64,000 bases of DNA from Bacterioplanoides sp. SCSIO 12839 (GTDB taxonomy: Bacteria > Pseudomonadota > Gammaproteobacteria > Pseudomonadales > Oceanobacteraceae), in NCBI RefSeq assembly GCF_024397975.1, contig NZ_CP073745.1, positions 1,700,501 to 1,764,500 on the forward strand, given 5' to 3'. The position numbers and the translations under genes are program-made. Within the stretch, counting starts at the first letter, position 1. Each line of letters begins with the position of its first letter. Below the pieces are notes generated by a model that was not told where the DNA came from, did no database searches, and saw only the letters and a list, made by a program, of their open reading frames with translations. Shown piece by piece: positions 25,374 to 47,368 of the stretch.

Positions 25374-25643
25374 TTAGTGGCTGGCAGGGTTCAGCAGATG
25401 ATCTGGGAAGCAGCTTAAGAAAGCTTTATTTAGCTCAGGAATTGACAGGTACTCTGGCGGCCATTTCTGGATTTTGTTGTGGACCCATAGCTGGACCGCG
25501 CTGTGGTTATCATAGCCTCCAGGAAGGCTCAAATAGCTGGCCATGCCATAGCCTTGGAGAATAGAGTGCTCAGCAACGAGTTTGCTGGCAATTTCACGGG
25601 CCTCTTTTGAAACCCAAACCAGATTAAAGTTATCAGGATGCAT
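25374..25643 (-). CDS. Small protein downstream of the second recombinase
   Basis: The predicted 89-residue protein (MHPDNFNLVWVSKEAREIAS...) overlaps the end of the recombinase gene by 11 bases. I chose the start at 25643 because GGAG lies 9 bases upstream inside the recombinase gene; starts at 25649 or 25658 are also possible. It has no recognised domain. The overlap implies translation together with the recombinase, as seen for small partner proteins of integrases. Confidence 0.55.
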   Translation of the reverse strand: MHPDNFNLVWVSKEAREIASKLVAEHSILQGYGMASYLSLPGGYDNHSAVQLWVHNKIQKWPPEYLSIPELNKAFLSCFPDHLLNPASH

Positions 25644-26697
25644 CGTCATCTTCTCCATTATTAATCCCGGATACCTGATTAAGGCGCTTATTTGATGGGC
25701 CAATATGCTCATTAAGTAGGCGCTCAATGGCAGAGCCATCCCGGCGGGTCAGGTTTGGGACATAACGAGAGTAGACTCGAAAGAGCATTTCGGTGGTGGT
25801 ATGCCCCATTTGAGCGGCAATCCACTCCGGGCTTTCACCTGAAGCCAGCCACAGCGTCGCTGCAGTATGCCGAGTCTGGTAGGGACGACGCTTTTTTAAC
25901 TTCAGATAGCGAAGCAGTGGGTACCAGACTCTCTTAGTAACGTTATTGTGCGACAACGGTGTACATGCCTGAGTGCAGAACACGAATTTTTGGTTGCCGC
26001 TTACTTTGAACTGAGCCTGTAATGCTTCATAAACCAAATCGCTCATTTGGATGTCGCGCTGAGAGCCATCGGTTTTGGTGTATTCGATGCGGCCATCAAC
26101 CACCGTTTCACGCACTAGAATCAATCGACGCTCGAAATCGACGTAACGCCATTGCAGGCCATCTATTTCACCTGTTCGCATGCCTGTGAAGAAGCGCAAC
26201 GTGTAATAGGCGTGAAAATCTGGGCGGACGTTATCCAAAATAAGCCTTACTTCCTCCAGGCTAAATGGCTCAACATCGACTCGTTGGATTTTTAGCGATT
26301 TAATCCCTTTAAATGGTGAGTTAAAATCATAGCGGTCAGCGGCTTCATTCAAAATCATTCTTAAAGGCGTCATGATCTTATTGATGGTGGCTGGTTTTAA
26401 GGCTTCTTTCTTCTGCTTTGGTTCTTTGGCGAGAGTGGAGCGGAAGCTAAGAATCTGGGCTTTGGTGATGGCGCTGACATCTATTTTGCCAAGCACCGGC
26501 AGGACATAAGTGTTGAGATTGCTCATCACGGATATAGCATGGCTATCGCGCCACTCAACCTTCATCTCATTCAGCCAAATCTCAGTGAACTCTTCTAGCG
26601 TTGGTGTCTCTGAGCGAGCTGCTCTGATTCGCTCATCATGCTCTGTGAATTCAGCTACGCGTTTACTGTTCGGAAAGGTTAAATAATCATCAGTCAT
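25633..26697 (-). CDS. Second tyrosine recombinase
   Basis: The phage-type integrase has 354 residues from the ATG at 26697, which is preceded by AAAGGT; alternative ATGs at 26718 and 26715 lack a ribosome site. A core-binding SAM-like region lies at about residues 30-140. Catalytic residues are Arg in FFTGMRTGEIDGLQW, HxxR-type in YQTRHTAATLWL, His in QMGHTTTEM, and Tyr in RVYSRYVPN. It lies inside the island, away from both ends, so it suggests a nested or older element. Its own attachment sites are not obvious. Confidence 0.92.
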   Translation of the reverse strand: MTDDYLTFPNSKRVAEFTEHDERIRAARSETPTLEEFTEIWLNEMKVEWRDSHAISVMSNLNTYVLPVLGKIDVSAITKAQILSFRSTLAKEPKQKKEALKPATINKIMTPLRMILNEAADRYDFNSPFKGIKSLKIQRVDVEPFSLEEVRLILDNVRPDFHAYYTLRFFTGMRTGEIDGLQWRYVDFERRLILVRETVVDGRIEYTKTDGSQRDIQMSDLVYEALQAQFKVSGNQKFVFCTQACTPLSHNNVTKRVWYPLLRYLKLKKRRPYQTRHTAATLWLASGESPEWIAAQMGHTTTEMLFRVYSRYVPNLTRRDGSAIERLLNEHIGPSNKRLNQVSGINNGEDDDAS

Positions 26698-26886
26698 TTC
26701 GTATACCTTTATCATCATATGTTGCTTTTACTCATCATTTGAAGAGTATGAGCGATTCTAAAGGTATTGTTGATGAATGTACGCTACATTTGCACTTCTT
26801 TATCTACAAATGAAGCTTTTGTTATTCTAGATGAGCTTCATGTGGTGTAGTAAACTCCGCGAATTATTAACTGGAGATGTTTTGAG

Positions 26887-27190: not shown

Positions 27191-27270
27191 GCGCGTTTCC
27201 TAGCGTTTCCCAGCGTTTCCCAGCGTTTCCCAGCGTTTCCCAGCGTTTCCCAGCGTTTCCCAGCGTTTCC
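27191..27270 (+). repeat. Eight tandem copies of a 10-bp unit, consensus CAGCGTTTCC
   Basis: The first two copies vary at one or two bases (GCGCGTTTCC, TAGCGTTTCC), and the next six are identical CAGCGTTTCC. The period of 10 bases is close to one helical turn. There are no spacers, so it is not a CRISPR. It could be a protein-binding array or a slippage-prone tract. Confidence 0.92.
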
Positions 27271-27589
27271 CCGTCAGAGTTCCCTTGAAAACACTCCCCG
27301 AGATGGCTCTATTTGATGACTTTCTCAATGTCCCTGGCGACTCTGATCAGATTTTTCTGTGTTCTGGTGGTTTGTCCAGAGAGTGAGGGCGAGAGTAGGA
27401 GGGGCAGGTTTGGTTTGTTATTCATCGGGGTGTGTTAACCGGTTGTAGTTCAAGTTATTGTTCTAAATTTGTTAATAATAATCCGTGGGTAATTCAATTT
27501 AAGGGTGCTGATGGCCTATTTTTTCGTTTACTGACAATTTAGCTGGCCTTTTGGTCAGCTTTCTATCTCCTGACCCCTTCTCCAGATGT

Positions 27590-27967
27590 CCGTTCACAGC
27601 GGAAAAAATTCGTGAACGGCGTGTTCACGGGCCGTTCACAGGTTGTGAACGGAAATTTTCCCAAATTTTCGTTCTATCTTCCGACCCCTTCTCCCGTGAA
27701 CGGAATGGGAAACGCTCGTGTGAACGGGAAACGTGGAAACGTTTCCGGTGAATTTTTTACTGTGAACGGGAGGGGTTTTGGTAACGCATTGAAAAATAAG
27801 ACAAAATTCATAAATTCATCAGAGAGTCACAATTTGTATGGGCTCAAATGAATTGTTTTTTGGGGGGTGTACACGGCAGAGGGGGTGCAAAGATGATATT
27901 ACTTACTCTAACGGAAGAAGGGGTCGGAAGATGCAACGCGTTTCCCGTTCACAGAATCTGTGAACGG
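27590..27967. repeat. Family of GTGAACGG inverted repeats forming hairpins
   Basis: CCGTTCAC or GTGAACGG occurs at 27590, 27612, 27632, 27645, 27696, 27720, 27762, 27945 and 27960. Perfect hairpins form at 27611-27629 (7-base arms), 27632-27652 (9-base arms, 3-base loop) and 27945-27967 (10-base arms CCGTTCACAG/CTGTGAACGG, 3-base loop). The companion element ATCTTCCGACCCCTTCT lies at 27676-27692 and exactly inverted at 27916-27932, with a diverged copy near 27565. The region looks like a repeated module of one operator or RNA element. Confidence 0.85.
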
Positions 27968-28185: not shown

Positions 28186-29790
28186 GTGTCGTTTCTCGAA
28201 AGTTTCAAAGTCAATGTGCAGTCGTCAGCTGCGTTGTTGCAAATTATTAGCCATGAAACGTTGCGTATTCGTGCTTGCTGTATACAAACAGTCAATGAGC
28301 TAGAACGCGATCTATACGTCTGGAGCGCGTCAGATGGCCTTCGTAAGTACATTGCCCAGGGTGGAGCATTTGAGACCGCTGATGGGGATCAGGGGCAGCC
28401 TCATGAGGTTTTAGAGTGGTTGTTGGAATACAGTCGTGGCGACAACCAAGAATTCCTCTTGTTGCTTGAAGATTTCCACCCTTTTCTGACAGTGGCAGAT
28501 CATCAGCTGATCAGTCGGTTACGCAGTTTTGCTATCGCAGTTGCCAGTCGCGAGATTACTGGCTGTACCTTGGTATTGTCTCAACCTATGCATTGCCTAC
28601 CACCTGAGTTGGAGAAAGAAACTCAGGTGATGGAAATGCCATTGCCAGATGCCGAAGATCTAAGAAAGATCATGAAGCAAGCTCAACAGCGCTATGACAT
28701 TGCTGATAGTGATTACGATGAGTCTGATTCCTTAATTGAGGCAGCATTAGGGCTCTCAACGACTGAAGCACAAATGGCGTTCTCAAAGGCTGCCTGTCAG
28801 TTCAAACGCTTGAAAAGAACAGAAATCCCATTTGTCGTGAAAGAAAAAGAGCAGGTGATTCGCAAAAGTGGCCATCTGGAGTATTTTCATCCGCAAGCAA
28901 CACTGGATGATATTGGCGGTTTGGATAATTTGAAGGCTTGGCTGAACCGGCGTCGTAAAGCATTTACTCCAGAAGCAAAAGAGTATGGGCTGGAGACACC
29001 GCGAGGCGTTTTGTTACTGGGGCTGCCCGGTTCGGGCAAGAGTCTTGCGGCTAAAGCCGTAGCCAATGCTTGGCAACTACCCTTACTTCGCTTGGATATG
29101 GGGAAGATTTACGGCGGAATTGTTGGCCAGTCTGAGGCTAATATTCGTGCAGCTCTGCAGACTGCCGAAGCATTAGCACCGAGTATCTTATGGATTGATG
29201 AAATTGAAAAAGGTCTGTCTGGGATGCAGAGCTCTGGTTCAACGGACGGTGGAACCACGTCTCGTGTGCTGGGAACTTTTCTGACCTGGATGCAAGAAAA
29301 GGACAAGCCGGTGTTTGTGGTTGCTACAGCCAACCATATTGACCAACTACCTCCAGAGTTACTGCGTAAAGGCCGAGTTGATGAAATCTTCTTTGTTGAT
29401 TTACCAGTACTGCCGGACCGCAAGGAAATATTGTCCATTCACCTAAAGCGACGTGACCGTTTTGACGATTTCACCGCAGACGAGATAGAGGAGTTGGCAG
29501 TAGCCAGTAAAGGCTATACCGGAGCAGAGCTCGAAGAAGCCGTAAAAGAGGCGATGTTTCTCGCTTTTGATGAGCAAGAGCAGCTCGCTAAGGAACATAT
29601 TCTTAAAGCATTAGCTGCCACTGCGCCATTATCCCAGACCATGGAAGAAGTCATATCCGCCACGCGAGCCTGGGCGAAAGGGCGTGCGGTATTGGCAAGT
29701 TCTTCGTCGCCAGAACCTATCGAACCATCTAAGGATAAAAAGCCCCGTCTAAAACAAGAAGGCGAAAACCCATTTATACCAAGTAAGTAG
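28186..29790 (+). CDS. AAA ATPase of the Ycf46-like type
   Basis: The 534-residue protein starts at a GTG preceded by AAAAAGGA. An N-terminal half (about 1-220) resembles a degenerate ATPase with LLLLEDFHPFL near residue 92, as in cyanobacterial and plastid Ycf46. A full AAA module follows: DDIGGLDNLKAWL, Walker A GLPGSGKS at 279-286, Walker B ILWIDEIEKG near 334-343, and a sensor/arginine-finger segment TANHIDQLPPELLRKGRVDE. The basic C-terminal tail looks disordered. It is the first gene of a seven-gene operon and its ATPase probably remodels a partner. The Ycf46 assignment is by recognition only, but DUF2997 and Ycf35-like genes in the same operon support it. Confidence 0.85.
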   Translation: MSFLESFKVNVQSSAALLQIISHETLRIRACCIQTVNELERDLYVWSASDGLRKYIAQGGAFETADGDQGQPHEVLEWLLEYSRGDNQEFLLLLEDFHPFLTVADHQLISRLRSFAIAVASREITGCTLVLSQPMHCLPPELEKETQVMEMPLPDAEDLRKIMKQAQQRYDIADSDYDESDSLIEAALGLSTTEAQMAFSKAACQFKRLKRTEIPFVVKEKEQVIRKSGHLEYFHPQATLDDIGGLDNLKAWLNRRRKAFTPEAKEYGLETPRGVLLLGLPGSGKSLAAKAVANAWQLPLLRLDMGKIYGGIVGQSEANIRAALQTAEALAPSILWIDEIEKGLSGMQSSGSTDGGTTSRVLGTFLTWMQEKDKPVFVVATANHIDQLPPELLRKGRVDEIFFVDLPVLPDRKEILSIHLKRRDRFDDFTADEIEELAVASKGYTGAELEEAVKEAMFLAFDEQEQLAKEHILKALAATAPLSQTMEEVISATRAWAKGRAVLASSSSPEPIEPSKDKKPRLKQEGENPFIPSK

Positions 29791-29796
29791 TTGTAT

Positions 29797-32700
29797 ATGG
29801 ACAATCCGTTTTTTACCGCACTGGAAGGCAGTGCTTTTGATGCATCCGAACTGGCCAATCAAACTATCAAGGTTTTGACTCCTTTTCGGCACTATTTAGA
29901 AAACAGCATCAAAGCACTTGAAAGCAAAGAGGTTAGTTGTCTTTGGAAGCCACTTGCTAATAAGTCTTATCGGTTAATACCAACCACAAGTGTCTGGAAA
30001 GTCACACCGATTAGTGAAATTGTCCTTTCTTGTGAGAAGCAAGGTTGGTTTGAAATTATATCGGTTGATGGTGAAGTTCCGGATCAAACTGAGTTTATGC
30101 CCGAGCTGGAAGACCCAGTAATTGCTGGTAAAGGCAGTGAACGGCTGAAGTTCGAAATCGGAGGAGAAGGTTTCCGGAAAGAAGATGGGAGGTTTGAAAT
30201 ATATCTTCCAGATTTGGCCGATCATAGAGTGATCCAATGGAGTGGTTATCAGCTAGAAGTCCGCCCCTTGGTTACCAATCTGAGCGATATAACAAGCGTT
30301 GAGGTTGATGGTCATTCCTGCAAAGTGACTGGAGTGCGTGATCAACAACTGACCGTTGAGGGTTATATCTCAGCGAATAGCCGCGTGACAATTGATGGCC
30401 AGGCAGCGGTTCATACTGTTTCTATTTCTATAAGAGAATCAGATGTTGAGCGGCTCTCTCATCGCAAAGACGGCAATGGTTGGCTTGTATTTAGTAAAAA
30501 CAAGCCGAAGCTCACTCATTGCGAAATCTCTGATGTAACGGCAAGGCAGCTGGGTACCATCACTGTGGATTACCTGAAATCTGATAATGGCAAATTACAA
30601 AAGGAAGACTGGTCGCTCATAGCTGACCAGGATCGGTTTAGGCTCGAAGCTTTGGGTACAGCGTCTCTAAACGAGGATCAGCTGCTAACGAGTTCACGAT
30701 TGCCGGGATTATGCTTCAAGGTCGAGCCTCGCGGAATAGAAGAAAAATGGATACAGCTGATAGAGAAGGAAACTGCTGGAGATGAGAGTGGCAGATCTGA
30801 CCTGGATTACTTTTTTGGCGATAATCAAAACATCAAAATCTTAGACTCAAGTCAGAGAAAGCATGATGACGGCTATAGGGTGGTGAAGGCCAAGCCAGAA
30901 GAACGACAATTGTTGCTTGCCAGAAATGTGAAAGGGAAAAAAAATTGGAAAAGTGAATATCCTTCTGCGAATAAGAAAAATGAACTGCGTGTGAGCGTCG
31001 ATACCAGTCAACTAAAACGCCAGAAAGAGGCGATTAATCAACTGATGAGTCGGCCTAAACTGGGTTATGCGCCATTGATCCAGTTACTGCAAGATAGAAA
31101 ATCAACGGCATGGGAGTCTTTTGAACCTAGGCCTGAAGGTGAAATTAAATGGCGTGTGCTGACGGATCCAAATTTTGATGGTTGTAACCGACAGCGAGAA
31201 TTTGTGGCAAAGGCTTTGGTTACACCAGACTTTGCGATACTCGATGGTCCGCCGGGTACCGGTAAGACCACAACCATTCTTGAACTGATTATGCAGTTGG
31301 TCTTAGATGGAAAACGAGTGTTGTTATCGGCCTCAACGCATGCTGCCATTAATAACGTATTAGAACGTATCAAAGAAAATAATGAGCTTTCGAGCCGTAT
31401 CTTTCCTCTTAGAGTAGGGAATGAGAATAACGCAATTGGTGTTGAGGAATATCAATTCGATAATGTGCTCGAGACGCTACAAAAGGCTGCGGGTTGTCAG
31501 CAGATCAGTAAGCAATTAATGGTTGATTCATCCAATCTAGTGTGTGGCACAACCATTGGCATTCTGCGGCTCTTTAATGACCGTGACATTACGTTGGATC
31601 GGGGAGAGCCACCCTTTGACGTGATGATTATTGATGAGTGCAGCAAAACGACGTTTCAGGAATTCCTGGTTCCAGCACGCTTTGCAAAGCGCTGGGTTTT
31701 GGTCGGTGATGTTAAACAGCTTTCTCCTTTTACCGATAGAGAGCAGATTATTGCCAATCTTGATGATTTAATGCTGAAACCTCCGCGTGGGAAAGCCCCC
31801 GCCGAGACACTGCCTAAAGAGGTTCAACAAGCTTGTTTTTTACTTGAAGAGCTAAGAGGACATAGAAACAAGCCTTATCAGCAGCCTATGCTTGTGCCGG
31901 TTACATCTTCTACGTTGTCAGCGTTAAATCATGAAGTTAGAGCGCGTTTAAAGGATTCTGAGCTTAATGCGGGGCTAGAGAATATTTTATTGATTGGTCA
32001 GCGCCAAAGAAGAAAATCAGGAGAAGAGCTTTATATCGATGTGAATGAGGTAGAGCAATCCCCGAAAGCTCTTTACCAATCAAATTTATGCTTTGTAGAC
32101 GAAAATGTGTTGTCGATTATCCAGTCCCTGATTCCCGATGATATGTTAGTTGTGCATCCGAACTGGTCGGGCACCTGCCAAGCATTTCAGCATCGATTAA
32201 GGGGAGCTGATACCCAAAAGCCATTCAGTGTAAAAACGAGTGACTACTCGAATACCGTTGACATACACAATCAGCTACTTGACCGTTTAAATACTACGAA
32301 ATGGTCTGAAGAGGTATGTTGGCGCTTGGAGCGCGAATATTGGCTCCGGCTCTCCAAAAACTATGATAAAAAAACGCGGACTATCTCCAATACGCTAAAA
32401 AGACTGTTCCCTAAATCAATTGACGCCGACGGTCGCATTCATATTCTCAAGGATATCGCTTTTCCTTCCATTCTTGAGGCGTTATCGGGTGATGGTTTAG
32501 CCAAGAGAAGAAAGGACGAACCAACAACGCTGAATCAGGGGTTATCTGATGTTGAAAAACAACAGCGTCACTCGACTTTAAACTATCAGCATCGTATGCA
32601 TCCCGATATCTCGGGGTTCCCAAGGCAACAATTCTACAAGAAGGGAGAGCTGTCGGATGGCAGTAGAACGGAGGCTGATCGTGCCTGGGGCTACTCTCGA

Positions 32701-33198
32701 TTTCGTAAACGAAATATCTGGCTGGATGTATCCGGAAGTACTTACCGCAATGCCAATGATAAGGAAGTAAAGTCTGTTATTAGAGAGCTAAAGGCCTTTT
32801 GTGATTGGGCCGAAGGCAAAAAGAAAAACGATAAACAGGAGCCCTATGATGTTGCGATACTCACTTTCTACAAGGGGCAGGAAAAAGCGCTGAGAGAAGC
32901 ACTTCAGCAGCTACCGGGAAACAAATCACGCTACGCAAGGTTTGTGTACAAGGGTATCGCTATCAAACTGGCGACGGTTGATTACTTCCAGGGCCAGGAA
33001 GCCGATGTTGTATTTTTATCCATGGTAAACACTAAGCGAGACGGCTTTATGGATTCACCGAACCGATTAAATGTATCCATAACCCGGGCTCGTTACCAAA
33101 TGGTCGTCGTTGGCCATCATAAATATTTCAGAGAAAAATCGTGGACCGAAGAGCTGCGTGAATTAGCCAAGTCTGCTCAAGTGGAATGCAGTAAATGA
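29797..33198 (+). CDS. UPF1/Dna2-type superfamily 1 helicase
   Basis: The 1133-residue protein has an N-terminal part of about 400 residues with no recognised domain, possibly OB-like or beta-rich. The SF1 core has Walker A GPPGTGKT at 484-491, motif II VMIIDECSKTTF at 609-620 and GDVKQLSPF (motif III). The C-terminal half has YQHRMHPDISGFPRQQFY (motif IV region), VDYFQGQEADVVFLS (motif V) and RLNVSITRAR (motif VI). This is the SF1B 5'-3' helicase group of UPF1, Dna2 and many defence systems. I chose the ATG at 29797; the frame also has a TTG two codons earlier. It begins 6 bases after the AAA gene and overlaps the next start. Confidence 0.92.
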   Translation: MDNPFFTALEGSAFDASELANQTIKVLTPFRHYLENSIKALESKEVSCLWKPLANKSYRLIPTTSVWKVTPISEIVLSCEKQGWFEIISVDGEVPDQTEFMPELEDPVIAGKGSERLKFEIGGEGFRKEDGRFEIYLPDLADHRVIQWSGYQLEVRPLVTNLSDITSVEVDGHSCKVTGVRDQQLTVEGYISANSRVTIDGQAAVHTVSISIRESDVERLSHRKDGNGWLVFSKNKPKLTHCEISDVTARQLGTITVDYLKSDNGKLQKEDWSLIADQDRFRLEALGTASLNEDQLLTSSRLPGLCFKVEPRGIEEKWIQLIEKETAGDESGRSDLDYFFGDNQNIKILDSSQRKHDDGYRVVKAKPEERQLLLARNVKGKKNWKSEYPSANKKNELRVSVDTSQLKRQKEAINQLMSRPKLGYAPLIQLLQDRKSTAWESFEPRPEGEIKWRVLTDPNFDGCNRQREFVAKALVTPDFAILDGPPGTGKTTTILELIMQLVLDGKRVLLSASTHAAINNVLERIKENNELSSRIFPLRVGNENNAIGVEEYQFDNVLETLQKAAGCQQISKQLMVDSSNLVCGTTIGILRLFNDRDITLDRGEPPFDVMIIDECSKTTFQEFLVPARFAKRWVLVGDVKQLSPFTDREQIIANLDDLMLKPPRGKAPAETLPKEVQQACFLLEELRGHRNKPYQQPMLVPVTSSTLSALNHEVRARLKDSELNAGLENILLIGQRQRRKSGEELYIDVNEVEQSPKALYQSNLCFVDENVLSIIQSLIPDDMLVVHPNWSGTCQAFQHRLRGADTQKPFSVKTSDYSNTVDIHNQLLDRLNTTKWSEEVCWRLEREYWLRLSKNYDKKTRTISNTLKRLFPKSIDADGRIHILKDIAFPSILEALSGDGLAKRRKDEPTTLNQGLSDVEKQQRHSTLNYQHRMHPDISGFPRQQFYKKGELSDGSRTEADRAWGYSRFRKRNIWLDVSGSTYRNANDKEVKSVIRELKAFCDWAEGKKKNDKQEPYDVAILTFYKGQEKALREALQQLPGNKSRYARFVYKGIAIKLATVDYFQGQEADVVFLSMVNTKRDGFMDSPNRLNVSITRARYQMVVVGHHKYFREKSWTEELRELAKSAQVECSK

Positions 33199-34805
33199 GT
33201 AAAAAGAAATCAAATCAGCTGAAATTAAGCTTAAAACGCAATATTGAGCTGCGCCGCTATCCTGTTATCGCAAAAATAACGTTTCAGCATGAGCGTCTAG
33301 ATTTAGTCTCTTTGTTGAAAGTCGTAGAGAACAAACACGAAACTCTACCCGAAAGGCTTAAATCTTATTTGTCGCGTGAATCATTGTGGGATAGTGATTC
33401 TGGACTCCTAACCGAAACAGGGCTGCAAGTTAAAGCTACTGGCATGTATGAAATCACTGAGCGGGGTCTCTACCATATTTGGTACACCAATGATGATCCT
33501 CTGCTGAAAAAAAGGCCAGTTTGTATACAACGAGATACCGCCTTCTTTGAGCCTGAAAAAACAGAAGTTTGGTTAAAAGGTAACGATGCCATTAGGAATG
33601 GATTTCATGTTGATGGCAACCTTAATGTTGAGGTCATTGACGAGGAGTTTAATGGCCGAAAAACCGAACAGCGCAAAACCAATTTAGAGCTAGTAAAGTT
33701 GGAGCCTGAGGTTATTTGCTCTCCCAAAGGAGACGCCGATGCCGAGCTAAACTGGTCTCTCTCTCGATCAAACTCTCAAATTAAGCTTGCAGGTCAGTTG
33801 GATGTGTTGCTATTCGGCAATAGCAACAAAGACAGAGAGCGACCTGAGGCGTTTGAATTAAGCATTGATGGATTCCAGGATGAATTCGATCCGATAATGG
33901 ATTTTATTGCTGAAGAGTTTGATGGTAGCTGGCGAAGTGATCTTCAACGGTTAATGCTGGGATTAGAAGAGGCTCAGGCACGCCAGGCTTCAACGAATAA
34001 CTTCCAAATTTCCAATTTTTATATTGACGATATAACGACTTCAATAGGCGATTTTAAGCGGGTGTCCGGTGAGCGTCTTCCAGTCATGCCGCTAGACCAG
34101 ACAGATGCCGAGCAGTGGCAGAAATGTTGGTTGGATAGATTCTATGAGACCTCTTACCAGCCAACTGAAAAGGCAATTCAGCGGCAGGCACAATGGTTGG
34201 ATCATCCAGCGTTACATGACTATGAGTTAAATCTTAAAACGGGTACGAGCTTAGTGAATTGTTTTAGTCGAGAGCAGGAGCCTGCTGCGTTTTGGCATGT
34301 GGCTGCCATGGCGGATTTAACCCCAGCCAAAAGTAAGAAGTTACGTCTGCCCATTAGCTTAGTTAATGAGGATGAGCTGGATCTTTATCAATTGATACGG
34401 AAATTGACGGATGACGATGACATACGACAACTCATTTATTCAGACCGTTATGTCCACACCGGTAGACAAGGGAGAAATCTGGCATCGGTAGCTGATTGTC
34501 TTGATGGCGCTGAAGGTTTGTTGTTAACCCTGGAGTCAAAGCACGGAAAAGACGTGACCCTACCTGATAATTGGCAACGAAAAACACTGCGAAAAGATCA
34601 TGACAATCATGGCCGCTACTGGATATTTATTGGCTCCGAGCATAATTACTACTGGGAATGCAGTAGTGGCCTAGATTTTATGCTGGAGAGGGATGGTGGT
34701 TTTGTTATTGCTGGTACACCGGGTTTCACTCCTAAAGAAGAGAATGAGCTTCCTCAATACTTAAAAAAAGCCATTGAAGAAGCCCAGTCCATGGAGGTTG
34801 CGTGA
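33195..34805 (+). CDS. Operon protein of unknown family
   Basis: The 536-residue protein has a basic start (MSKKKSNQLKLSLKRNIELR), no signal peptide and no membrane segment. I recognise no catalytic or binding motif. Its ATG overlaps the helicase stop (ATGA), and the next gene overlaps its stop by one base, so it belongs firmly to the operon. It is likely a structural or recognition component. Sequence comparison with BREX or DISARM accessory proteins is not convincing by eye. Confidence 0.8.
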   Translation: MSKKKSNQLKLSLKRNIELRRYPVIAKITFQHERLDLVSLLKVVENKHETLPERLKSYLSRESLWDSDSGLLTETGLQVKATGMYEITERGLYHIWYTNDDPLLKKRPVCIQRDTAFFEPEKTEVWLKGNDAIRNGFHVDGNLNVEVIDEEFNGRKTEQRKTNLELVKLEPEVICSPKGDADAELNWSLSRSNSQIKLAGQLDVLLFGNSNKDRERPEAFELSIDGFQDEFDPIMDFIAEEFDGSWRSDLQRLMLGLEEAQARQASTNNFQISNFYIDDITTSIGDFKRVSGERLPVMPLDQTDAEQWQKCWLDRFYETSYQPTEKAIQRQAQWLDHPALHDYELNLKTGTSLVNCFSREQEPAAFWHVAAMADLTPAKSKKLRLPISLVNEDELDLYQLIRKLTDDDDIRQLIYSDRYVHTGRQGRNLASVADCLDGAEGLLLTLESKHGKDVTLPDNWQRKTLRKDHDNHGRYWIFIGSEHNYYWECSSGLDFMLERDGGFVIAGTPGFTPKEENELPQYLKKAIEEAQSMEVA

Positions 34806-37078
34806 TGGAGCAGATAAAAATAAGGCAAGATGAATTCTCGATTGATTATCGGGACGAACAGTTACCTGCGCTTTTTTGCCATCAAGACTCTGATTGTGAT
34901 TTTTCGACCTCTGGTGTTATTGACCTAGAAGGCTTTGAAGCACTCCGTACAGCAATCAATAGTGCTCGCCTGACTCTATTGATAGCCAGTGATCTGATCA
35001 AAAGCGAAGAAATAATCGAGCTGTTGCAGCAGACTGCTGATCGTGGCGTTCGAGTTTACCTGCTGGTGGGTGAGCCAAAGCGAAACAAAACTGCAATAGA
35101 TGCTCTATCTGGGCGTTGTCTGATTCGAACTGGGGTAGAACAGAAAGGAGCTTTAATGTTGGTTGACCACTCGACGACTGCGCCGACGGGTATGTTGATC
35201 ATGAACAGCGCTGTTTTTGAGGCATCTGATTCAAAAGCTTGGGCTGTCGAACTCGAAGAAAAACAGATAGAAGACTGTTTTCGTAGTTTTTGTAAATTGT
35301 TTTGGGAAAGCTCAAGCTCTGAGTGCTTGAATGAGGCGTCCGGCGCGTTTCAAAACACTCACCCTGATGGAGTCATTGTAACGAATCATTCACATCACTT
35401 GGTTGGAAGCCTTGGGAGTTGTATTCAGGCGTCTTTACAGAGCCTGACTGCAATCAGTTATCGAGACCATTATCGAGACGACGCGGAAGAACCTGGTGCT
35501 GGGCTTAGTGATTATCGTATGTTGCTTTCAAGCCAAAGCAAGAATATTGCTATCGCAGCACGTGACGGTGTTGCTCTAACCGATTCTTCTATCCCATCTC
35601 TCATATTGTCTGAAGAAGGTAATTGGCTGTTACCGGATGAAGCCGATTTCAGTAAAGCAAATTGGTGTTTAAGGCTGTCAAAAAGAGAGAGTCAGTCTAT
35701 TCATGATGCCTACGACCTGGCTATAGATGACGCTGCTTGGCACTATAAATCTGATTTTGCCATGCAAGATATTGCTAGCAACCAGCAGGTCCGGTTTGCA
35801 GATAACCCTGGTGATATTCAAAATCTTAAAGAAAAAAGAGCCCGCACATTAGAGGCAATTAGTACGGGTGATATTGACCAGTTCCTAAATGAAAGTGCTC
35901 AAGCCTTAGCGGGCGATTCTGTGAACTGGCAACAAGATTTTATGGCGTACCAGGTTGACTATGAAGTCGATATTCATCCTCCTTATGCTCCTTCTCAAGC
36001 GGTAAAAGATGATCTGTACTCGCATTGGGATGACGCAGAGACAGATTGGAAGAAGCGCTTGCAAGCTCTTGAAGGTAAGTTGATCTCTATTAATGAAAAG
36101 CAGCAAAGCATACCGGATCGGCTAACTGGTTTCATAAAGTCATTTTTGCTGGGGCAGAATCAATCCGTCAAGTCGATAAATCGTGAGCTCGATGCGTTAA
36201 AAGATTGGTCTGTCACTGCAGCAACTCCTGCAGGTCGGCTGGAGTACACGGGTCGAATTGATAAATTGATGGCAGAAATCGACAAGAGGGGAAGTGAAAC
36301 CGCTGCGAAAATTGATGAGGCTGAACAACATAGTCAATGGTTAGAAAAGAAGAAAGATTTAGAATGTAAACAGAGCAAAAAATCAGAGGTAGTTGATAGT
36401 AAAGAATCTGCCCGGGAAAAGCTGAAATCAGAAAAGGAAATGCAGCTTGAGGATATCGATAAGCAATTCCTCTCTCAATGGGCTGGAGCTTTTGGTAATC
36501 TAAATGACAAACAACTTGCTGGTGTGAAATTACCCAGTTTTCTCCATGGAAAAGTTCCGGTAGATACTGAGGAGGGCAGTAACTCTGAAGCTTTAGATAA
36601 AGTTATAGTCATGTCTCGTATGACGATTGAGCAAGCCAAGCAATGGAAGGGTGAAATAAAAAACAGCACCTGGAAAAAACATTATAAAGCCTTTGAGGGA
36701 GCAATGGAGTCCAGGGAGCGCTCAATAAATCAGCTTGATCGAAAGATTAAAGAAGCGGAGCAAATGCTGGAAAAAGCTCAATTGGATTTAGAAGCCGCAA
36801 ACGTGGAAATTGCTGATCACGGGTCTGAATTTAGCTACAAACCCAAGAAAGATAGTCTGGCGTTAGAGAAGCTACTTGGGATAGAAAACCAGAGCAAAGC
36901 GTCTTCCATATTTACCTGGCCAGACGAAGAGTTACCGGCAGAAGATACCGAGTTGCGGACACATGCGGGTAAGCGATATTTGGTGATTTCAACGACTGAG
37001 CAGTTAGCCGAAGCTAGAAAAGATGCTAAAAGGCTGGCGGCGAAAATCGTCTGTGATAGGGAGCAGATTAATGCCTGA
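34805..37078 (+). CDS. Protein with degenerate phospholipase D-like domain and long coiled coil
   Basis: Of 757 residues, about 40-180 look like one PLD-fold half: a leading helix/strand pair (LEGFEALRTAINSARLTLLI), RGVRVYLLVGEP, and KGALMLVDHS...GMLIMNS where an active PLD would have HxKxxxxD and GSxN. The His and Lys are replaced, so it is probably catalytically dead and may bind nucleic acid. Roughly residues 400-680 are highly charged and helical, consistent with coiled coil. I chose the ATG at 34805, preceded by GGAGG. Its stop overlaps the DUF2997 gene by 8 bases. Confidence 0.7.
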   Translation: MEQIKIRQDEFSIDYRDEQLPALFCHQDSDCDFSTSGVIDLEGFEALRTAINSARLTLLIASDLIKSEEIIELLQQTADRGVRVYLLVGEPKRNKTAIDALSGRCLIRTGVEQKGALMLVDHSTTAPTGMLIMNSAVFEASDSKAWAVELEEKQIEDCFRSFCKLFWESSSSECLNEASGAFQNTHPDGVIVTNHSHHLVGSLGSCIQASLQSLTAISYRDHYRDDAEEPGAGLSDYRMLLSSQSKNIAIAARDGVALTDSSIPSLILSEEGNWLLPDEADFSKANWCLRLSKRESQSIHDAYDLAIDDAAWHYKSDFAMQDIASNQQVRFADNPGDIQNLKEKRARTLEAISTGDIDQFLNESAQALAGDSVNWQQDFMAYQVDYEVDIHPPYAPSQAVKDDLYSHWDDAETDWKKRLQALEGKLISINEKQQSIPDRLTGFIKSFLLGQNQSVKSINRELDALKDWSVTAATPAGRLEYTGRIDKLMAEIDKRGSETAAKIDEAEQHSQWLEKKKDLECKQSKKSEVVDSKESAREKLKSEKEMQLEDIDKQFLSQWAGAFGNLNDKQLAGVKLPSFLHGKVPVDTEEGSNSEALDKVIVMSRMTIEQAKQWKGEIKNSTWKKHYKAFEGAMESRERSINQLDRKIKEAEQMLEKAQLDLEAANVEIADHGSEFSYKPKKDSLALEKLLGIENQSKASSIFTWPDEELPAEDTELRTHAGKRYLVISTTEQLAEARKDAKRLAAKIVCDREQINA

Positions 37079-37274
37079 ACAAAAAGTGGTCATCACCATT
37101 GATGAAGAGGGCTCTGTACATGCCAAAACCAGTGGTTTTAAAGGGGAGAGTTGCCTTGAAGCACTGGATGAGTTGCTCAATCTTGAGGGTGGGGTGAGTC
37201 AGCTAAAAAAAACGGATGAATACCACCAGCAGCAAACGATACAGAAGACTCGCTTGCAGAAAGTAGGGAGGTAG
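37071..37274 (+). CDS. DUF2997-like small protein
   Basis: The 67-residue protein MPEQKVVITIDEEGSVHAKT... has the DUF2997 pattern: a short beta hairpin (VVITIDEEGSV), then GFKGESCLEALDELLNLEG with its central cysteine. In cyanobacteria and other bacteria DUF2997 genes accompany ycf35 (DUF1257) and ycf46-like genes, and both occur here. Its start overlaps the previous gene by 8 bases. The biochemical role of the family is unknown. Confidence 0.75.
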   Translation: MPEQKVVITIDEEGSVHAKTSGFKGESCLEALDELLNLEGGVSQLKKTDEYHQQQTIQKTRLQKVGR

Positions 37275-37279
37275 CCTGC

Positions 37280-37792
37280 ATGAGTGCAGTAATTAAAACA
37301 GCAACGCCTTTTTTGATTGAGTCAGTATTGATACAGGCGTTAGAAGCATTGGGTGTAGAGCCTCAGAAAGTCAGCAGTGAAATGCAAATGTCTTTGGCTC
37401 AACGAAACCAAATTCAAACAGGTGATATTTTAACTAACCGTAGTGACTATAACGGCCGTCAATTATTTCGTCGTCAAGGTGAGCGCTGGATTCTCCTGCA
37501 TGATGGTGACGAAATGAACGGGCGTGTTGTTAGCCAGCTGACGAATCGCAGATACACAGCCGTTAGTAAATTTCTGGTTGAGCTCGGAGACAAATATGAA
37601 ACTGCGTATAAAGCGCATTTAGAAGATCTGGCAGAGAAGGAACGAATCCGACTGGAAGAGGAAAGAAAAGCGCGAGTCGAAGCGACCAGGCAGCAAGCAA
37701 TCGAGAAGGCTAGAGCGCAGGGTTATTCCGTGAAAGAAAGCCGCAATGCAAAAGGCCAAATACAACTTGTACTAACCAGGACAGTGAGTTGA
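37280..37792 (+). CDS. DUF1257/Ycf35-like protein
   Basis: The 170-residue protein has a C-terminus that fits the DUF1257 (Ycf35) family: a charged helix, then ARAQGYSVKESRNAKGQIQL and VLTR, where the family has a conserved helix followed by a two-strand tail ending in a basic/aromatic residue. The N-terminal half is more divergent (FLIESVLIQALEALGV, YNGRQLFRRQGERWILLHDG). GGAGG lies just upstream of the ATG. DUF1257 proteins co-occur with Ycf46 ATPases. The stop overlaps the next gene by four bases. Confidence 0.65.
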   Translation: MSAVIKTATPFLIESVLIQALEALGVEPQKVSSEMQMSLAQRNQIQTGDILTNRSDYNGRQLFRRQGERWILLHDGDEMNGRVVSQLTNRRYTAVSKFLVELGDKYETAYKAHLEDLAEKERIRLEEERKARVEATRQQAIEKARAQGYSVKESRNAKGQIQLVLTRTVS

Positions 37793-38376
37793 CGTTTGGA
37801 AACTGCTTCAATGTGGCTAACATCAAGGAATCAAGTCAGATATATGGCCCAGGGAAGCGCTTTGTGATTTGGCTTCAGGGCTGCACTTTAGCCTGTAAAG
37901 GTTGCTGGAATGTAGATATGTGGTCTAGTCGTCCGGAGCACTTAATCGACCGGCAGGCGCTGTTAGAGCAAATCCTGAACTCCAACGATATCGAAGGCGT
38001 AACGTTTCTCGGAGGGGAACCTCTGCAGCAGACTGACAACCTGATCTGGTTGTTGCAGCAACTCAGGAGTAGCGGCCTGAGCTCCATGTTGTTTAGTGGC
38101 TATGAGATTGAAGAGATAAAGGCTGATCCTGTTAAGTCTATAAGTCTTGAGTACACAGATATCTTAGTTTCGGGTCGTTACAAGCAAGAGGTACGCAATA
38201 TCAATTTACTCTGGCGCGGTTCTGAAAATCAGCAAGTTCTTTTTTTAAGTGAACGCTATCAAGATTACGAGATTCTGGAATGTAATCAGGTTGAAGTAAT
38301 GATAGATGAGTTTGCTGCGACTACGGTATTGGGGTTTCCGGAAGGTGACAATGATCTATTTGTCAAAATATGGTAA
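37789..38376 (+). CDS. Radical-SAM 4Fe-4S protein, NrdG/pyruvate-formate-lyase activase-like
   Basis: The 195-residue protein carries the radical SAM cluster motif GCTLACKGCW (Cys32, Cys36, Cys39) preceded by PGKRFVIWLQ, and the SAM-binding GGEPLQQ at 75-81. The length and simple architecture match activating enzymes such as NrdG and the 4Fe-4S single-domain group. No glycyl-radical enzyme is encoded nearby, so its target may be another operon member or RNA, nucleotide or protein. The start is a TTG at 37789 overlapping the previous stop (TTGA); an internal GTG would cut conserved sequence. Confidence 0.85.
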   Translation: MTFGNCFNVANIKESSQIYGPGKRFVIWLQGCTLACKGCWNVDMWSSRPEHLIDRQALLEQILNSNDIEGVTFLGGEPLQQTDNLIWLLQQLRSSGLSSMLFSGYEIEEIKADPVKSISLEYTDILVSGRYKQEVRNINLLWRGSENQQVLFLSERYQDYEILECNQVEVMIDEFAATTVLGFPEGDNDLFVKIW

Positions 38377-44500: not shown

Positions 44501-46625
44501 CATTACCGTTACGAAGCAGTCACAGCTGTACCGCAGTGTGTTGGGCGCATCGGGAGAAAGCCTGATTCGTGAGTTCAATGCCTTCAATGGCGAGTGGCTA
44601 TTGCAGATGGTAAATGACCCACAGAAAGAAAAATTGGGCAAAGAAGGTGTAATCGCTTCATACAAAGCTGTTTCTGCCATGCTATCTAAATCTGATATCT
44701 GCTGGGTGCCGTTATCAGTCGCCGAGATGATTCGGGTTGCAGGTAATATTGGCCTGGCAATGAGTGACTCAGACTTCTCTCGGCATAACCTTGGTATCAA
44801 ACAAGGTGCGATTTCAGATGATGTACTGTTTGCGGGCTTTAAAGACGGAAAACTTTACCTGTTGCCTGTAGAGTCCAAAGCGGGAGCTCGCCCTAATTTT
44901 GACAAGGCTCGTAATCAGGCCAGAGAACTTAAAGAGTATATGGAAAACTTGCTCGGCCAGGAGAATCTTGCGGGCAGGCTATATCGTGGGTTGTTTGTTC
45001 GTCAGGTTTTGATGCAGGTCGAGAAATACCAGCTCTATAAAGTATTCAGCGATGATTACTTTGAAGCGCTATTGTCAGCGCGGGAGGAGTGGTTGGAAGG
45101 TAATTACGGACTCGCACATCTGAAAAACTACCCAGCAGGCATGGTTGTAGCTCACCTGAATACAGAGTCATGTATTGCCGAGCGCTACGAAGAAGTCGAG
45201 GATATTCTTGAAATAGATATCCCGATGACCAAGCTTGCTGGTCTGGTTCATCAGCCGTATGAAGCGTTGAAAAATGAACTTCAGGTAGGTCGTCTGCTAG
45301 CAGTGCCAGATCAGTATATCCTTGGAGAAGCGTTCGCGAGTGAGTGCGGAAGTCAGTTACATGCAGGGGATGATGATGCTCAGTCATCTGAAGTGGACTT
45401 GAGTACTCCTTGTCCGGAATCAGTCATCGAATGCTCCGAAGCCGCAGAGTCAGAATTGAAACGCGATGCTTCAGAATCGTTCGCGTCACCAGCACCAACC
45501 GGACCGTTGGTTATTAAGTTTGGAACTGATGTTTCTAACAATCAGGACGTACTTTGGGAACCTACAAATACCGAAAAACTATTCAATACCAATACCGGTA
45601 TTATTGGCACGATGGGCACGGGGAAAACCCAGTTTACTAAATCTGTCATTACCCAGCTGGTGCGCAATCAGCATAATAATGTTGGCGGGACACCAATTGG
45701 TATCCTCATCTTTGACTACAAAGCAGACTACGTAAAGGATGACTTTGTTGAGGCGACAGGAGCAAAAGTTTACGACCTGTTCCATCTGCCGTTCAATCCA
45801 TTGGCTATCTTCGGTGACAGGCCAATGCAACCGATGCACACGGCCAACCTGTTTAAAACAACGGCGGCCAAAGCATTTAATCTAGGTACAAAGCAACAAA
45901 ACAAGATTCGGACGCTTGTGATGGCCGCTTATGAGGCTGCAGGTATTTATCCGCAGGATAAGAGCACCTGGGGCCGTTTGCCACCGACCCTCGCTGACGT
46001 TTGGGCAGAATTTCAGGCTCAGGATAAGATTGAACAGGACTCGCTTTATGCAGCACTGGATGACCTGATCAGCTTCGAAATATTCGAGCCTGATAGTAGT
46101 AAGACCAAATCTCTCTATGACCTCGTCGATGGTGTCACTGTTATTAACCTATCTGGATATGATCCAAGCATTCAGAATCTGGTGGTAGCCCTGATGCTTG
46201 ATCTGTTCTATACCCAGATGCACCAACAGGGTAGCTCTAAGTTGGATGGTGATTTCCGCCAGATATCTAAGATGATCCTTGTTGATGAAGCCGATAATTT
46301 TATGTCTCAAGACTTTGAGAGTTTAAAGAAAATTCTCAAAGAAGGGCGTGAATTTGGCGTCGGTACTATCTTGTCGACACAAGAATTAACGCACTTCAAA
46401 ACGGGTGATAACGATTATTCGACTTTGATTCTTTCGTGGGTAATTCATCAAGTGGCGAACATCAAGCCACAGGAGATCAAAGCGATCTTCAATACCCAGA
46501 AGAAGGATGACGAGGAGTACTTTATGGGGCAGATTCGCAAGTTGGAAAAGCATCATAGTTTATGTGTGGATGGTAAAAAGAAAGTGGCTAAGATTAAAGA
46601 TTTAGCGTTTTGGGAGTTGAAATGA
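41490..46625 (+). CDS. dptH: Phosphorothioation-dependent restriction protein DptH (HerA/FtsK-like ATPase)
   Basis: DptH (DndH) is the large motor subunit of DndFGH. It has 1711 residues. The N-terminal two thirds have no motif I can name. The C-terminal HerA/FtsK-like ATPase has Walker A GTMGTGKT at 1373-1380 and Walker B MILVDEADNF near 1595-1604, followed by EGREFGVGTILSTQELTHF. I chose the ATG at 41490 (MSEKQFEGF), as the frame upstream lies inside dptG. The stop overlaps the abortive-infection gene (ATGA). Confidence 0.93.
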   Translation: MSEKQFEGFLVRHLKDWLTSRLKPGDRFQFRSTDPDNTVRLLSALHDSADGTVDDEGTSLSYLDVNDIQLLIAGHAEEKSVEQGCYTDNYLAKLRDRVVDDRRALIMVHNSSLDTITNSTFDLAHTGAIWSVAKIRDLLEGLIDESMTNRDTSKCLLDLQTKIVASDGASIFGYRSLYESMIDGDLRFDELGLFNDPHLTDSWGGATTSPNQRQIERRLEENRKLRSDIEFEIEHHPAEIEDRLTQFGGKFVKDNFVNSDEWKNRTYDEFVSEIQKQKKQALELVDVVAATGNLQRRSKKETAAGQREQNVLLQVPEDQSTFQIDLKFTGARTEKSEFEIQPKKAVKLLELSHKPRGNNTTFTISGAMTQEPLFFSVRTRRELSSEQFKFQCLVLPEGRFCFDDIVNKYLIKATGRGQTLVIQSDVQLLVTNPELESSVTLNDNDEVIDVDEVGTLDYRQIYDESDEVRFILKSGATELPVHVEGESAKESLTLPLLMDTSRARHMFNDDYYGVYKESKGTVVVENQEVMQLFLRKQLLDAEWEFIASELVCWDASKEKGLPAVGLTAFPELQSLHQSYLAFLAHFKSGNRRTLPSLEGWGPELVQRAKTYVSEYLSYLETVERGKTLSPATKLVMKLGTANIRDAEENRVKSYLTPFHPLILAYYLYLIENILADGDDLSFRTLPEVTLKRLTARGLIPHLFDDKQQYSYTQTVDENAFWLEIVPREDSSFDYIGKLVKRKIEEFTETFSRLFDTVSSAPVLINSVNNAENRELFRGLLAYYIEHLEEGRYIHVNLYDDDEIETEFDLFAEMATYDDIKDRYDLDKGKAKRNTDTIVDVLRTRLTFSKFLNRKIEQQAYAHLTFFKNNQVVDARDNNIDEHLSGVACGGLLNGESSRSENDAYFTAFGLKGVDYSDKAHLKIARLFGAMWRPSKLNNDSYHEHSAISLAVSDSVKKLLDKSYDSSVWVTIVDPKVTLDFFSKSDDVILIHYSDQYTSSAGYDAITVTKQSQLYRSVLGASGESLIREFNAFNGEWLLQMVNDPQKEKLGKEGVIASYKAVSAMLSKSDICWVPLSVAEMIRVAGNIGLAMSDSDFSRHNLGIKQGAISDDVLFAGFKDGKLYLLPVESKAGARPNFDKARNQARELKEYMENLLGQENLAGRLYRGLFVRQVLMQVEKYQLYKVFSDDYFEALLSAREEWLEGNYGLAHLKNYPAGMVVAHLNTESCIAERYEEVEDILEIDIPMTKLAGLVHQPYEALKNELQVGRLLAVPDQYILGEAFASECGSQLHAGDDDAQSSEVDLSTPCPESVIECSEAAESELKRDASESFASPAPTGPLVIKFGTDVSNNQDVLWEPTNTEKLFNTNTGIIGTMGTGKTQFTKSVITQLVRNQHNNVGGTPIGILIFDYKADYVKDDFVEATGAKVYDLFHLPFNPLAIFGDRPMQPMHTANLFKTTAAKAFNLGTKQQNKIRTLVMAAYEAAGIYPQDKSTWGRLPPTLADVWAEFQAQDKIEQDSLYAALDDLISFEIFEPDSSKTKSLYDLVDGVTVINLSGYDPSIQNLVVALMLDLFYTQMHQQGSSKLDGDFRQISKMILVDEADNFMSQDFESLKKILKEGREFGVGTILSTQELTHFKTGDNDYSTLILSWVIHQVANIKPQEIKAIFNTQKKDDEEYFMGQIRKLEKHHSLCVDGKKKVAKIKDLAFWELK

Positions 46626-47368
46626 CAATCACGAGGATTGGTTTAGGTCTATTTACTATTGCCGCATTGGCACTTGCACTTGTGTTGGGTATCTACTTTT
46701 TTAAGTTTGGTGGCTACCTTAGTAGTGACCAGGGAGTTTGGGGAACTTTCGGTGATTTTGTTGGTGGTACTTTAAACCCTCTTCTAGCGTTTGCATCTTT
46801 GTGTGCAATTCTATTGACAATGAAGATGCAGTCGGATGAGTTGAAGACATCTACCAACGCATTACGTCAACAAGGTGAGTACCTTGAACTTCAGGCAATT
46901 GAGAATACATTTTTTTCTATGTTAGAAGTATATAATAAAAAAGTAAATTCATTAGAGTTGAATGAAGATGTCGGTAGGAAGGTGTTTGGCTCTGCTTATG
47001 ATATGTTAAATCGAGCATATGATGGTGACCGTATTAAATTCGAAGGTGGCGATGAATTAAAGATAGTTCAGCATGCATACAAAAGGTTCTATTCAAAAAA
47101 TAAGCCTGTGATTCAGCCTGTAATGACACTTTTGAATCAAATTATTGAGTATATAGAAAAATCTGAGTCACCTGTTTCTGTAGTTTCATACAGTGATATA
47201 TTGAAATCGGTTATGAATGAAAATGAAGTTCTTCTTTTATTTTATCATTCGATATCGTTTGATGGACTTGATTCTTTACGAAGGTTGAATGGGGTGGGGA
47301 TGTTTAGTGATATAAATAAAAGCAAGCTTTTCAATCCCAATTCTCATAAAAAGTTTCTGGAGTTATAA
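46622..47368 (+). CDS. Putative phage abortive infection protein (putAbiC type)
   Basis: The 248-residue protein has two N-terminal membrane helices (about 6-28 and 47-66) separated by GVWGTFGDFVGGTLNPLLA, a signature of the putative phage abortive-infection family. A cytoplasmic helical part with RQQGEYLELQAIENTFFSML follows. It overlaps the dptH stop as ATGA. The base composition turns clearly AT-rich here compared with dptH. It may act as a membrane effector, alone or together with the next gene. Confidence 0.8.
   Translation: MTITRIGLGLFTIAALALALVLGIYFFKFGGYLSSDQGVWGTFGDFVGGTLNPLLAFASLCAILLTMKMQSDELKTSTNALRQQGEYLELQAIENTFFSMLEVYNKKVNSLELNEDVGRKVFGSAYDMLNRAYDGDRIKFEGGDELKIVQHAYKRFYSKNKPVIQPVMTLLNQIIEYIEKSESPVSVVSYSDILKSVMNENEVLLLFYHSISFDGLDSLRRLNGVGMFSDINKSKLFNPNSHKKFLEL

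Follow-up and report, generated by a model that had tools for sequence, protein, structure and literature searches.

A seven-gene operon in a mobile island

The 64,000-nt window of the Bacterioplanoides sp. SCSIO 12839 genome analyzed here includes seven open reading frames (g1 to g7; Table 1) that, in the ORF list of the window, share the plus strand and fill positions 28186-38376. Neighboring frames overlap by 4-8 bases or are separated by gaps of 0-5 bases. The compact, one-strand operon that an initial annotation of this DNA had proposed is therefore real.

Table 1. Features of the seven-gene operon and its surroundings, in window coordinates
Feature	Position	Strand	Description
Integrase gene	25633-26718	-	On the g1 side of the operon
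Repeats	27193-27281 and 27590-27967		10-base tandem repeat (GCGTTTCCCA) and nine GTGAACGG copies, both orientations
g1	28186-29790	+	Ycf46-type AAA+ ATPase, 534 aa, GTG start
g2	29791-33198	+	SF1 UPF1-like helicase, 1135 aa
g3	33195-34805	+	Elongated winged-helix-type adaptor with C-terminal MITD1-like PLD-fold domain, 536 aa
g4	34802-37078	+	Tandem PLD-fold domains without HKD and long coiled coil, 758 aa
g5	about 37071-37274	+	DUF2997 protein, 67 aa; listed ORF starts at 37023
g6	37280-37792	+	Divergent DUF1257 (Ycf35) protein, 170 aa
g7	37789-38376	+	NrdG-like radical SAM protein, 195 aa
AbiC-like and GmrSD-type endonuclease genes	46610-49165		Between DptH and the Dnd genes

The mobile-island setting beside a Dnd-Dpt system, also part of that annotation, is borne out. 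On the 3' side, the operon is followed in order by DptF, DptG, DptH, an AbiC-like gene, and GmrSD, with DndB and a PAPS-reductase-family gene beyond GmrSD on the opposite strand. The presence of AbiC-like and GmrSD genes between DptH and the Dnd genes implies that several defense systems are stacked in this island. GC content is 43%-46% across the island versus 47%-52% in much of its flanks. Neither convincing direct repeats marking the island ends nor a tRNA gene was found in the window, and a same-genus relative did not yield a clean empty site. The genome is a single contig of 3.9 Mb whose one DUF2997 match lies inside the operon.

Two kinds of repeat are located between the integrase/HTH genes and g1. 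Of one of them, GTGAACGG, the window contains 12 copies where 1.6 would be expected. These repeats were considered as a component of the system and rejected because other loci carry no such clusters.

Recurrence of the gene set

A profile built from three helicase sequences was scanned against 85,000 genomes. Because the search relied on the helicase alone, the genes found next to each match constitute independent evidence. All seven genes occur together in 12 loci, which excludes chance juxtaposition and confirms the earlier proposal that a helicase unit is joined to a Ycf46/DUF1257/DUF2997 module as a recurrent unit. Eleven loci share one gene order, and the exception, from Fibrobacter, ends with g6-g7-g5. 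Complete sets are present in Pseudomonadota, an archaeon, Bacteroidota, Campylobacterota, Myxococcota, and Fibrobacterota. The closest helicase relatives accompanied by the whole set come from Photobacterium, Amphritea, Shewanella, Methanococcoides (the archaeon), Bacteroidetes, Helicobacter, Myxococcales, and Fibrobacter, and three further loci were found in the window organism's own family. Contig ends interrupt the Thalassovita and Alteromonas loci, which keep g2-g7, and another locus (L015) keeps g2-g4 with no g5-g7 seen and its g1 region cut off.

Pairwise identities between loci are correlated among g1-g6 (r = 0.91-0.98) and with g7 (0.75-0.82), and none of 999 permutations gave values as high. 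Thus, the seven genes travel together. In a helicase tree, the Ycf46-linked helicases form one branch (98% SH-aLRT), within which the archaeal copy is nested near proteobacterial ones.

The operon is also rare. It was detected in 1 of 369 genomes of a class sample (g3 search) and in 4 of 55 relatives with the window genome counted (full-length g4). Homolog searches with g3 alone were unproductive in plasmids, viral contigs, and the class sample, and a DNA-similarity search in Escherichia coli found no homologous locus.

A helicase core with an altered PLD protein

The family assignments made in the initial annotation were right for the helicase (AAA_11/AAA_12) as well as for the AAA ATPase, DUF2997, and radical SAM (Fer4_12) proteins, whose scores are given below. 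The g2 protein matches Pfam AAA_12 (5e-37) and AAA_11 (6e-29), and it matches PADLOC MkoA at 2e-83 over the helicase core region, which is preceded by about 460 aa. Its helicase motifs (GPPGTGKT, DECSKTTFQEFLVPA, GDVKQLSP) are intact.

The third protein, left unnamed in the initial annotation, combines a winged-helix-type (wHTH) adaptor (residues about 1-375) with a MITD1-like PLD-fold domain (about 380-535). Its match to the adaptors of sister loci is strong in profile-profile comparison (hhalign probability 99.9, E = 4.6e-32), and the wHTH assignment derives from this match together with weak fold similarity to TrmBL2. In the predicted structure (pLDDT 87), residues 380-535 resemble the PLD-like domain of MITD1 (Z 12.6, rmsd 2.4 over 128 residues), with SauUSI as the next match (Z 9.1). 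Residues D417, H472, and R474 are invariant in this tail, which therefore carries H472-x-R474, an HxR without a following Asp. We know of no nuclease activity for MITD1. The sister adaptors lack this C-terminal domain.

For g4, Pfam gives weak PLD/TrmB matches, and the predicted structure (pLDDT 79) has tandem PLD-fold domains (about 38-317; similar to tandem PLD folds such as that of PLD3, with Z about 16), a long coiled coil (404-673), and a small C-terminal domain. The PLD fold and coiled coil that had been annotated are therefore modeled, but the catalytic motif HxK(x)4D is absent from the PLD site in all 15 seven-gene copies examined. In contrast, nearly all PLD proteins of sister loci carry two HKD motifs. 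Profile-profile alignment with those proteins (E = 3.6e-30) places Lys-Ala at the His-Lys of the first motif, with the Asp retained. An active PLD nuclease was rejected for g4 on these grounds. In this branch, then, g4 has lost its HKD motifs and g3 has gained a PLD-fold domain, neither of which had been noticed before. Because g4 lacks HKD whereas g3 has its own PLD-fold tail, the effector site probably shifted to g3, or else g4 may have become a sensor.

Sister cores and their other partners

Profiles of g2, g3, and g4 match corresponding genes in about forty sister loci, where other regulators take the place of the remaining four genes. The operon is accordingly composed of two joined modules, a core (g2-g3-g4) and a module of g1, g5, g6, and g7. 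Partners of sister cores include RtcR-type CARF-sigma54 proteins (4.5e-209), viperin (1e-71) with CARF in methanogen-type archaea, CARF by itself, WYL (2e-54), and a kinase paired with a vWA gene of weak TerY similarity. Helicase-adaptor-PLD defense cores thus appear to exchange regulators freely, with Ycf46 now added to CARF-sigma54, viperin-CARF, WYL, and TerY-like partners, and one branch of the core has lost an apparent PLD nuclease site while gaining a new effector-type domain.

The TerY-linked helicase falls inside the Ycf46 branch of the tree, adjoining the Myxococcales copy, which suggests a partner swap. In this myxococcotal locus (L027, 9185-18495), the vWA and kinase genes are downstream, replacing the Ycf46 module, and HKD is likewise absent from the PLD protein.

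Several other sister loci have features of their own. The archaeal operons (L021, 2974-8047; L028, 8033-15361) combine viperin, CARF, and the helicase-adaptor core; a PLD gene is present in L028, and the L021 locus is cut. An RtcR-linked four-gene locus is near-identical across several marine gammaproteobacterial families (L007, L039, L042, L044, L046), implying recent transfer, and one copy is on a plasmid adjoining cas1/cas2. In Motilimonas pumila (L041, 8120-12166), such a locus has its helicase split, with about 1.2 kb between the two pieces.

The Ycf46-type module

The Ycf46, DUF1257, and DUF2997 families are best known from cyanobacteria and plastids. To our knowledge, no biochemical role has so far been assigned to Ycf46, Ycf35, or DUF2997. 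Only the C-terminal half of g1 could be assigned to a family; it is an intact AAA+ domain (Pfam AAA, 1e-30; GLPGSGKS, DEIEK, RKGRVDEIFF), and its Walker A, Walker B, and arginine-rich regions are conserved in nine aligned copies. Its closest relatives are full-length AAA ATPases adjoining DUF1257/DUF2997 genes. Identity to the ATPases of standalone modules is about 38%-46% over most of the length, and the Ycf46 label comes through these neighboring genes rather than through a reference Ycf46.

The g5 protein matches DUF2997 (PF11211) at 35.4 bits, above the cut-off of 24.1, and has one Cys that is invariant in 21 aligned sequences, standalone modules included. For g6, the DUF1257 assignment fared less simply. 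The Pfam profile (PF06868) scores only 15 bits, below the cut-off of 22.2, but a g6 profile made from seven-gene loci recovers annotated DUF1257 proteins (4e-7 and 2e-4), and g6 is therefore a divergent DUF1257 protein. Its seven-gene copies carry an added charged helical segment that is absent from standalone DUF1257 proteins. This segment and the g4 coiled coil suggest a candidate contact point between the two modules. A glycyl-radical site in g6, considered because of a conserved Gly-Tyr (AQGYSVK), was dropped since it resembles a common helix-end motif; standalone relatives have other residues after this Gly.

The g7 protein matches Fer4_12 (1e-33) and NrdG (TIGR02491; 1.5e-34), the latter with 119.2 bits, just under the equivalog cut-off of 126.1. 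Its GCxxxCxGCWN (CX3CX2C) and GGEP motifs are conserved. An identity as viperin was rejected because pVip gives only 19 bits, versus 237 for true viperins, and NrdG is the best match. An ordinary activase of a housekeeping glycyl-radical enzyme is also unlikely. Neither Gly_radical (PF01228) nor NRDD (PF13597) is matched in seven of the 12 carrier genomes, and two of these seven are 99% complete. This point had been missed; the remaining carriers, including the window genome (NRDD), do have a glycyl-radical enzyme match. The target of g7 therefore probably lies inside the operon and is probably no known glycyl-radical enzyme.

In the absence of the helicase, the g1, g5, g6, and g7 families are found as a group on Paenibacillus and Paenarthrobacter/Arthrobacter plasmids and on one gammaproteobacterial contig. 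This standalone module occurs in settings that give no hint of defense, which counts against an antiviral role. The initial annotation had the radical SAM family right but treated the gene as an addition made alongside the helicase; its co-occurrence on these plasmids assigns it to the Ycf46 module itself. On cyanobacterial plasmids, the AAA+, DUF1257, and DUF2997 genes are present, and no radical SAM gene was seen in their vicinity.

These distributions bear on two functional readings. A radical SAM enzyme within a helicase operon adjoining Dnd-Dpt could belong to a nucleic-acid modification machine, in which the helicase would supply the DNA or RNA on which g7 acts by radical chemistry to place a self mark. 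We consider this very improbable: the NrdG family acts on proteins, g7 occurs in the standalone module without any helicase, and no restriction nuclease site is evident among the operon genes. The second reading takes the AAA+ module as an antitoxin restraining toxic g2-g4 products, so that an addiction or abortive-infection unit keeps the island in place. The integrase adjoining the window copy would fit, as would the SGI1 antitoxin SgiA, which belongs to the SpoVK/Ycf46/Vps4 group of AAA+ ATPases (PMC10954446). However, an addiction unit would not usually be built of seven genes including a radical SAM enzyme, the AAA+ module is also found where g2-g4 are absent, and L015 has g2-g4 without g5-g7, though with its g1 region cut off. 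This reading is accordingly improbable.

Relationship to named systems

No system matching the seven-gene set was found in PADLOC 2023 or NCBIfam 2026, and no description was found in the open literature, a scope that excludes subscription papers and most preprints. The earlier statement that no named system has this gene set is thus upheld. The broader claim of an undescribed system needs qualification because the helicase part has relatives in Mokosh and in CoCoNuT CnuH/CnuE.

Mokosh type I (MkoA helicase and MkoB PLD) likewise places a UPF1-like helicase beside a PLD-fold protein, and g2 is of the MkoA type by the match given above. However, that system has two genes and an HKD-bearing PLD partner, whereas the operon has seven genes and a g4 without HKD. 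Our comparison took a Tolypothrix kinase-helicase/PLD pair as Mokosh type I. In the PLD protein of this pair, a wHTH-like stretch (88-132) is a weak match to the adaptor profile (iE 7e-6). Relative to this pair, the operon keeps adaptor and PLD as separate genes, has no kinase domain, and adds Ycf46, DUF1257, DUF2997, and radical SAM proteins.

CoCoNuT CnuH/CnuE resembles g2-g3 in that a UPF1-like helicase precedes an elongated wHTH protein ending in an effector-type domain, and it likewise has coiled-coil partners. Helicases of this family typically precede elongated wHTH proteins fused to effectors, and related systems use RtcR and TerY-P (PMC11090510). The core is therefore of a known kind. 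In CoCoNuT, the effector domain is HEPN or Vsr, whereas g3 has a MITD1-like PLD fold. Types II and III carry an McrB-type GTPase (CnuB) and McrC; none of the seven operon proteins matches McrB or McrC, and a Ycf46-type AAA+ module is in their place.

The RtcR-linked four-gene loci (e.g., on a Vibrio aerogenes plasmid, L007) have homologous g2, g3, and g4 in identical order, but their PLD protein has two HKD motifs, their adaptor lacks the C-terminal domain, and a CARF-sigma54 regulator replaces the Ycf46 module. Conversely, the module on the Paenibacillus polymyxa M1 plasmid (L104) has the identical four families with no helicase core and a DUF1257 protein without the charged helical segment. 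As far as we have found, the Ycf46 module as partner of the core, the loss of HKD, and the new g3 domain are undescribed.

Possible functions of the operon

The operon is probably an unnamed defense system. A defense role is likely because the core is homologous to parts of Mokosh and CoCoNuT and because of the partners that sister cores keep. The patchy cross-phylum spread of the operon is also on the side of defense. Adjacency of seven-gene copies to known defense genes is mixed. It holds for the window copy, located between an integrase and the Dpt, AbiC-like, GmrSD, and Dnd genes, for L010, which adjoins Druantia-like genes (DruE, 2.5e-97) and PDC-S69 (4.3e-117), and for L013, next to a NERD-UvrD gene (5.6e-57). 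In contrast, the tested flanks of L095, L096, L009, and L011 gave no defense-library matches; L095 and L096 have flanks that look housekeeping, and L011 directly follows guaA. L009 and L097 have mobile surroundings, with a TrbI gene close to the former and an integrase close to the latter.

Such housekeeping-like flanks would suit a response to stress or RNA damage, in which the core processes broken or stalled RNA, a redox-sensitive radical SAM/DUF2997 switch senses cell state, and mobile carriage is incidental. Sister systems also pair with RtcR-type regulators, and RtcR is known for its part in RNA repair (PMC7790460, PMC9650030). In cyanobacteria, DUF2997-DUF1257 (ycf35) adjoins the ferredoxin gene fed7 (PMC4284462), an arrangement that, like the operon, sets both DUFs beside an iron-sulfur protein, though with ferredoxin in place of the radical SAM protein and no helicase core. 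However, the rarity of the operon among relatives and in its class, its cross-phylum spread, and the viperin, CARF, and WYL partners in sister loci all weigh against a stress response, and we regard it as unlikely.

We therefore favor a mobile, probably antiviral two-module complex in which a helicase core is joined to a Ycf46-type switch, with a probability of roughly 0.6. The switch mechanism is less certain than the defense role. The UPF1-like helicase (g2) would move on RNA or single-stranded DNA, with g3 as its winged-helix adaptor and g4 as a coiled-coil scaffold of tandem PLD folds. In sister systems, the PLD protein with two HKD motifs is presumably the nuclease; here, its function has probably passed to the g3 tail, or g4 may have become a sensor. 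The products of g1, g5, g6, and g7 would occupy the position held in sister loci by RtcR/CARF, viperin-CARF, WYL, or TerY-like genes, and this gene position suggests that they control or mature the core. Most likely, g7 would modify the DUF2997 protein, perhaps through its invariant Cys, or the DUF1257 protein, and this small complex may serve the AAA+ ring in remodeling the core at foreign nucleic acid.

A more specific proposal is that the DUF2997 (or DUF1257) protein, once modified by g7, licenses the Ycf46-type ring to switch the state of the helicase-adaptor complex at foreign nucleic acid, which would be a new kind of defense. We advance this only tentatively. If true, it would provide the first biochemical role for Ycf46, Ycf35, and DUF2997, and the module, also where plasmids carry it alone or cyanobacteria pair it with ferredoxin, would serve as an AAA+ switch of general use under redox or radical control. 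Independent of this proposal, the operon ties these three families to radical SAM chemistry and moves them from a photosynthesis setting to a compact operon of bacteria that can be cultured and in which a selectable phenotype can be sought. As a separate observation, a Treponema plasmid (L100, 10333-12488) carries a Ycf46-type ATPase and an NrdG-like radical SAM gene amid phage-tail-like genes (VgrG, baseplate V).
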